This document shows positions 21,169 through 63,425 of a DNA stretch of 64,000 bases, one piece after another. Source of the stretch: Aedoeadaptatus coli (GTDB taxonomy: Bacteria; Bacillota; Clostridia; Tissierellales; Peptoniphilaceae); contig NZ_OPYI01000001.1 in assembly GCF_900343085.1 (NCBI RefSeq), positions 1-64,000 on the forward strand. Reading direction: 5' to 3'. The notes under the pieces are model-generated. The model did no database searches. It was not told the origin of the DNA and saw only the letters and a program-made list of their open reading frames with translations. The position numbers and the translations under genes were made by a program. The stretch's first letter is position 1. The number at the start of each line of letters is the position of its first letter.

Positions 21169-21202
21169 AATGGAAGGAAAACATTTCCTCAATTTTATAA
21201 GT

Positions 21203-21316
21203 ATTCTTCGGGGCGAGGTGCGATTCCTCACCGGTGGTAAAGTCCACGAGTCATTTTGATTGAATCGGTGCAATTCCGATACCGACGGTATAGTCCGGAT
21301 GAAAGAAGAAGCGAAG
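21203..21316 (+). promoter_or_regulatory. FMN riboswitch (RFN element)
   Basis: Contains the conserved RFN core: TTCGGGGCGAGGTGCGATTCC, TCACCGGTGGTAAAGTCCACGAG, then ATCGGTGCAATTCCGATACCGACGGTATAGTCCGGATGAAAGAAGA (in pieces over 21206-21310). A hairpin AAGACAAC/GTTGTCTT (21314-21333) and a terminator (21350-21375) follow. FMN binding should favour termination ahead of ribD, so flavin represses the operon. Confidence 0.96.
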
Positions 21317-62477: not shown

Positions 62478-62506
62478 TTGAATAAAGATCGTTGATGTGA
62501 TATACT
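62478..62506 (+). promoter_or_regulatory. Promoter of the YitT-family gene and its leader
   Basis: TTGAAT (62478-62483), a 17-bp spacer and TATACT (62501-62506). The transcript should begin near 62513, about 256 nt ahead of the coding start. Confidence 0.75.
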
Positions 62507-62512
62507 GTGTGC

Positions 62513-62760
62513 GATAGTACTGTTTGATTACGGTGGTTACCGATTTAATCGGTAGTTTTTATCTGATGCAGGGTATGCGATGAGTGTTCGAGAAGTGCCT
62601 GATGTGGGATTTTTCGAGCCGTTAAGCACATCTGTTGGCTCAGAGTTTTTATAAGAAAAAATCAGCAAAACAAAAAGCATCGACACCATCCGAAGATTGC
62701 GAATTTAGGAGAACCTAAGGCGGCAGTCTTTTTTTGGTTCCCTAATCGTCGAATTAGGAG
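62513..62760 (+). ncRNA. Structured leader or small RNA upstream of a YitT-family gene
   Basis: Long 5' region with several helices. ACCGATT/AATCGGT with a T-run (62539-62560) looks like an early terminator. GATGTG (62601-62606) can pair CACATC (62627-62632), and GAGCC (62616-62620) can pair GGCTC (62637-62641); these are interleaved, a possible pseudoknot. A strong terminator (62693-62735) follows, then the RBS. No known riboswitch class is recognised. It may be a riboswitch-type leader or a separate small RNA. Confidence 0.5.
62693..62735 (+). terminator. Attenuator-like terminator before the YitT-family gene
   Basis: Outer stem AAGATTGC/GCAGTCTT (one G-U), inner stem TTAGG/CCTAA with loop AGAA, followed by seven T. 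Ends 34 bp before the coding start. Confidence 0.8.
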
Positions 62761-62768
62761 TGACATTT

Positions 62769-63425
62769 ATGCTCAGTTCTTTGCTGAGAAACCTTGAATT
62801 AACGAAGAAAGATTTTTTCAAAATCATGTTGGGTTGCGCGATTATGGCTTTCGGCGTGGTCAATGTCCACGAGCCCTCTCAAATAACCGAGGGCGGCGTC
62901 TTGGGCTTGGGCCTGTTTTTAAAGAAAGTCGTGGGCCTGAACCTGGCCTATGTATCGCCGGTGCTGGACGGCCTGTGCTACGCATTGGGCTTTTCCATGT
63001 TGGGCGCTCGCTTCTTAAAGAAGTCGGCCGTCGCCACCATGGGCTTTTCCGGCTTTTACTGGATCTTTAACTTTATGGGCCCCGTCCTTCCCAATCTCTA
63101 CCATTTGCCCTTACTCGCCGCCATTGCCGGCGGGATCTTTATCGGCTGCGGCTGCGGCATTGCCGTAACGGCCGGGGGCTGTGCCGGCGGCGACGACGCC
63201 CTGGCCATGGTGATTTCGAAAAAAATGAAGTGGCCCATTTCCCGCGCCTACTTCTTTACCGACGCCGTGGTGTTGGCTTTGTCTTTAAGCTACATCGCGC
63301 CGAGTCGACTGGTCTTTTCCTTTATGACGACCATCGTTTCGTCTTACTTAGTCGGCCAGTTTGAATTAAAGATGAAGGCACCGGCTTGGCAAGTAAGCCA
63401 AGGCGGCATGGAGAAAAACGCATAA
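62769..63425 (+). CDS. YitT family membrane protein
   Basis: 218 residues. The ATG at 62769 is chosen because TTAGGAG lies at 62754-62760; a GTG at 62760 overlaps it. Five or six membrane segments with the YitT pattern: GCAIMAFGVVNVHEPSQITEGG, VSPVLDGLCYALGF and GCGIAVTAGGCAGGDDALAMVISKK. YitT proteins are widespread, of unknown substrate, and usually longer with a C-terminal cytosolic DUF2179 domain, which is absent here. The structured leader upstream makes ligand-responsive control plausible. Confidence 0.87.
   Translation: MLSSLLRNLELTKKDFFKIMLGCAIMAFGVVNVHEPSQITEGGVLGLGLFLKKVVGLNLAYVSPVLDGLCYALGFSMLGARFLKKSAVATMGFSGFYWIFNFMGPVLPNLYHLPLLAAIAGGIFIGCGCGIAVTAGGCAGGDDALAMVISKKMKWPISRAYFFTDAVVLALSLSYIAPSRLVFSFMTTIVSSYLVGQFELKMKAPAWQVSQGGMEKNA

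Follow-up and report, generated by a model that had tools for sequence, protein, structure and literature searches.

Proteins of the YitT family (COG1284, DUF161) are very widespread, and their function is not established. Among RNA regulators, the NiCo, guanidine and yjdF riboswitches are ON switches that induce exporters. The yybP-ykoY and yjdF leaders, which lie before transporter genes, were orphan riboswitch candidates before their ligands were known, the ligand being reached later through the role of the controlled gene; the NiCo and yjdF riboswitches are covered by the same source (PMC7266159). On the protein side, the yczE genes, which encode DUF161 membrane proteins without DUF2179, are under the control of the small-molecule-sensing MocR/YczR regulators (PMC4944035).

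The locus described here lies near the end of the window, that is, the whole stretch of 64,000 nucleotides from Aedoeadaptatus coli that was analysed, where a leader RNA precedes a short yitT gene. It resembles yybP-ykoY and yjdF in being a conserved folded leader with terminator or Shine-Dalgarno (SD) control ahead of a membrane-protein or uncharacterised gene, and differs from them in its consensus, in having no Rfam match and in having been found with one gene family only. With the NiCo, guanidine and yjdF riboswitches it would share the logic of inducing a presumed transporter, although its fold is unrelated to theirs as far as Rfam tells and the substrate of YitT is not established. As at yczE, a DUF161 protein without DUF2179 would be subject to a sensing regulator, which is a PLP-binding protein there and an RNA here. 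The parts of the locus are the following:

62478-62506, + strand: promoter TTGAAT-17-TATACT with TG before the -10; transcription start expected near 62513
62532-62688, + strand: conserved aptamer-like domain (models R1/R2, 158 positions; R1 E 1.0e-27 for this leader; 42 + 10 genomes; covariation)
62534-62537, + strand: P1 5' strand, pairing with 62685-62688 (94.5% of cells paired; double-sided changes at 2 pairs)
62539-62553, + strand: P2 hairpin (double-sided changes at 4 of 5 pairs)
62556-62560, + strand: U1 tract, GGG or CGG where the P7 loop has CC (L219, L220, L221, L224); tentative second tertiary contact
62562-62566, + strand: P3 5' strand UCUGA, pairing with UCAGA at 62640-62644 (99.6% paired; nearly invariant)
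62567-62639, + strand: P4-P5-P6 arm with the loop UGAUGU at 62600-62605 (double-sided changes at 17 of 17 pairs of P4-P6)
62645-62662, + strand: P7 hairpin GUUUUU-AUAAGA-AAAAAU (one pair changes from U-A to C-G in 7 sequences)
62677-62682, + strand: 3' strand of the likely pseudoknot PK1, pairing with 62600-62605 (possible in 52 of 52)
62692-62735, + strand: intrinsic terminator with T7 run (hairpin -16.7 kcal/mol)
62736-62749, + strand: anti-SD segment, complementary to the terminator apex and to the SD (coevolving complementarity)
62751-62760, + strand: SD region (ATTAGGAG), assigned from sequence and from its hairpin with the anti-SD
62769-63425, + strand: gene of a short YitT membrane protein of 218 aa (Pfam PF02588, orthologs)

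A promoter upstream of the leader had been proposed by an earlier, sequence-only reading of this DNA, and it is borne out as an extended -10 promoter, TTGAAT-17-TGTGATATACT, with the -10 at 62501-62506. Over 52 leaders the mean promoter score is 10.8, against 7.7 +/- 0.16 in shuffles, and the spacing from promoter to P1 is 20-34 nt without exception. Moreover, the leader is more stably folded than 200 dinucleotide shuffles (z -3.4). The terminator, ribosome binding site and YitT gene that the same reading had placed behind it are all present: the U-run ends at 62735, and the protein matches PF02588 with 120.1 bits (cut-off 24.3; E 1.1e-34). The start of yitT is the conserved ATG at 62769, which has a well placed SD, the mechanical open reading frame beginning at a GTG at 62760.

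Rfam 15, with 4227 families, contains no match to the leader at the gathering level, the only matches of that level in the whole window being tRNAs and the FMN riboswitch at 21200. At E <= 10 the best in the region are eukaryotic snoRNAs and PhrS, far below their cut-offs. The 6S RNA model (RF00013 and its clan), a match to which would have refuted the sequence-only reading, gives none at either level; 14 diverse relatives likewise give no gathering-level match, and the T-box leader model matches neither the leader nor the diverse relatives. In the accessible literature no paper joins YitT with a riboswitch, and the main text of two large RNA surveys mentions neither the carrier genera nor YitT. 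The known FMN riboswitch of the window spans 21200-21314 (110 bits), and a dense cluster of 14 tRNA genes occupies 13-1448.

The segment 62532-62688 has relatives in at least 52 genomes, which span two bacterial classes: 42 belong to the organism's own family and the other 10 to Fundicoccus and related Lactobacillales. When 61 genomes were searched at the DNA level, the leader turned up in every one of the eight genomes of the genus and also in other genera of the family; it stands before yitT each time, although the other neighbours differ. The covariance model R1, built from 13 sequences, recovered the 42 carriers among 130 genomes of the family and none in the remainder of the sample of the order. 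Scanning of named GTDB genomes placed carriers in Aedoeadaptatus, Peptoniphilus, Anaerococcus, Finegoldia, Neofamilia and Urinicoccus, as well as in Fundicoccus ignavus of the Lactobacillales, around which nine more were found among 120 genomes. No further convincing match came from the phylum (398 genomes sampled) or from Bacilli (299 genomes), in searches that score few candidates per genome, so that rare diverged copies can escape. Weak matches in the phylum (E 0.04-0.08) are at chance level, and one match in Bacilli (L227, E 1.1e-5) was judged spurious: it overlaps coding sequence, and yitT is absent there. The RNA was not found in the viral contigs and plasmids searched, and in each carrier genome a single copy was found. 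In one Lactobacillales carrier, a fluoride riboswitch (L219:1792-1874, + strand) adjoins the yitT leader in divergent orientation, before a probable Na+/H+ antiporter gene.

The association with yitT is exclusive. All 52 RNAs lie directly upstream of a short YitT gene (about 210-220 aa, without DUF2179), and the closest short-YitT orthologs and the RNA are found together in 52 of 52 cases. Within the family, carriers coincide exactly with the 42 genomes whose orthologs are closest (>260 bits), and nine genomes with a more distant short YitT (219-255 bits) have no RNA; in the Lactobacillales sample, orthologs above 240 bits are present in 10 genomes, which are exactly the 10 carriers. With yitT as its single target gene, the RNA provides no pathway context. 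Beside six distant orthologs inspected (L200, L201, L203-L206), where the RNA is absent, there is a divergently transcribed MerR regulator, and all four regulators scanned (L201, L203, L205, L206) have a MerR and a GyrI-like small-molecule domain, two slightly below the curated cut-off. These proteins may sense the same substrate in place of the RNA. Known riboswitches, sought as a hint to the ligand, were not found before the orthologs that have no RNA. The leader of another distant short-YitT ortholog, some 270 nt long (L208:830-1097), is of a different type, with a duplicated GTCAGCACTG, a terminator-like end and no match in Rfam.

In the predicted fold of the domain, P1 closes a junction of the P2 hairpin, the long P3-P6 arm and the P7 hairpin, and the alignments indicate that the A-rich linkers belong to the domain too. 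In the fitted alignment of 52 sequences, 92.4% of cells are paired, as against 36-48% in controls with the strands slid. Double-sided changes, whose counts are inflated by kinship among the sequences, occupy 244 cells of this alignment against 76.4 in shuffled and 34-72 in slid controls, and since fitting biases this alignment towards the model, the count from an unfitted MAFFT alignment (13 sequences) is given too: 37 such cells against 15.4 in shuffles. The same P4-P6 arm was obtained in 40 separate constrained folds, P1 can be lengthened to GGTGGT/ACCATC, and P3 shows G-U changes in L226. The sequence-only reading had predicted a riboswitch-like leader of no known class, to be checked by covariation, and this survives: a conserved structured 5'-leader domain with strong covariation, no Rfam match and exclusive linkage to yitT make the leader riboswitch-like in kind, and as a class it appears to be new.

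The details of the fold depart from that earlier proposal in several points. An early hairpin followed by T5 is present as described (62539-62560), and most likely it is not a terminator of its own but P2 together with a conserved linker, both within the aptamer-like domain. The interleaved helices GATGTG/CACATC and GAGCC/GGCTC fail: across 43 sequences 48.3% of their cells are standard pairs, a figure like the 47.9% of shuffled columns, and covariation is absent; CACATC falls within the variable 3' strand of P4. The specific pseudoknot built from these helices is thereby lost, but another one is likely on comparative grounds, in which the UGAUGU loop of P6 would pair with the 3' end of the domain (PK1). 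Most PK1 strands are invariant and therefore uninformative on pairing; where they change, pairing is kept, with U-A for U.G in L225, and C-G for U.G together with G.U for G-C in L226. A nested pairing of a 5' GATGC with GCATC was rejected as a universal element, fitting only about 42 of the 52 sequences, because it is lost in L065, L069, L070, L074-L077 and L225 and imperfect in L222 and L223. This competing 5' site for GCATC is missing from about ten sequences; it reads GATGA in L043 and L045. L226, however, carries the compensating change GATAC/GTATC, so that the nested pairing may have an alternative role.

U1 and the P7 loop may form a second tertiary contact, tentatively proposed from the four Lactobacillales sequences in which the two have GG/CC where UU/AA is found elsewhere. 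The two U5 tracts flanking P3, followed by A-rich stretches, recall ENE-type triple helixes. However, the middle pair of P7 is C-G in L073-L077 and three other sequences while U1 stays U, and U1 changes to GG in four others; these changes lend no support to a plain U.A-U triplex.

Downstream of the domain, 40 of the 43 leaders scanned have a terminator with a U-run only a few bases beyond P1; of the others, L050 and L051 have no such terminator and L062 stops at the contig end. The apex of this terminator is complementary to the anti-SD, and the duplex between them is significant against shuffles (p < 0.05) in 25 of 35 leaders. Native duplexes have a mean energy of -21.4 kcal/mol, compared with roughly -13 when the partners are swapped between genera, and in 19 of 26 cases the native pair ranks 1-3 of about 25 against such swaps, the exceptions being L021, L024, L044, L047, L048, L057 and L073. 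Because terminator and anti-SD coevolve, two alternative leader states in cis are supported, and these states, terminator or coevolving duplex, are mutually exclusive. For the window, the predicted energies are -16.7 for the terminator plus -5.6 for the SD hairpin, versus -19.9 for the duplex. Partition folding revealed no conserved antiterminator between domain and terminator, and extension of P1 into the terminator was discarded as a general antiterminator, as it is seen in single species (L021, L041) and overall not above chance. The inner stem of the terminator contains recurrent motifs, GTACGA...TACGACC or CACGGAG...CACGGCC (e.g., L064, L074), which are kept across genera, a conservation that exceeds the needs of a simple terminator.

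The main reading, to which we give a probability of roughly 0.7, is that of a cis-acting leader RNA of a new riboswitch-like class which controls yitT by attenuation and by access to the SD. The sequence data are best read as a leader that works like a riboswitch, a riboswitch identity itself not being claimed. In the absence of the ON state, the terminator would end transcription and the anti-SD would cover the SD in leaked transcripts. In the ON state, pairing of the terminator apex with the anti-SD would at once undo the terminator and free the SD, and a small ligand bound by the domain would shift the balance between both states.

Other explanations have to be weighed against this one. The absence of a conserved antiterminator pairing would leave room for an outside factor as the switch, and a single target gene suits a dedicated pair, so that the leader could be the binding site of a protein acting in trans, either an antiterminator or an EAR/put-type processive antitermination element. 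This is unlikely, given that the size, the pseudoknot and the long invariant loops and linkers are typical of aptamers, that the element stops at the local terminator and SD of one gene, and that no cofactor gene is linked, the neighbours being variable. The near balance of the two platform states in predicted energy would also suit a fold that senses general or physical conditions, such as temperature, divalent ions or the state of translation, instead of a specific metabolite, which is less probable still, as the invariant unpaired positions shared by the two classes exceed what a thermosensor needs.

An element with its own promoter and terminator might, moreover, be a small RNA acting in trans that is kept beside yitT by chance. 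All 52 copies lie at yitT in neighbourhoods that differ, and an anti-SD behind the terminator that coevolves with it is sensible only in cis, which makes this account highly improbable. Hardly any weight, and marginally less than to the small RNA, is given to a known family (6S, T-box or a known riboswitch) diverged beyond detection by Rfam: covariance models can miss diverged members, but neither the leader nor the 14 diverse relatives reached the gathering level.

Within the preferred reading of a cis-acting riboswitch-like leader, the direction of control is a matter of some preference, and analogy inclines us modestly towards a ligand that would switch yitT ON. MerR-type regulators are commonly activators, and ON is preferred because the diverged yitT relatives use such a regulator with a small-molecule domain instead of the RNA. 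The transport hypothesis for DUF161 proteins that was made for YczE (PMC4944035) argues for the same direction. The fuller proposal, a new class in anaerobic cocci and Lactobacillales whose sensing of a small molecule turns on a dedicated YitT transporter, is held with somewhat less assurance than the main reading, and still on the favourable side.

As for the protein, the AlphaFold model of YitT is good (pLDDT 86) and has two similar halves, each made up of one helix, a short one preceded by a GG motif, and two more helices, so that the modelled protein looks transporter- or channel-like. Comparison with the PDB gave nothing better than E 0.8 (Foldseek) or Z 4.2 in a second look, and is informative neither way.

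If the reading as a new class is true, the ligand of the RNA would give a YitT-family protein its first substrate lead, and an RNA that has a selective pocket and yitT as its only target would turn the question of function into a ligand screen. The MerR/GyrI-like regulator would add another, independent sensor, expected to respond to the same compound or a related one, and each of the two could serve as a test of the other. The platform, moreover, would be an instructive double gate, in which the terminator apex doubles as the antagonist of the anti-SD.
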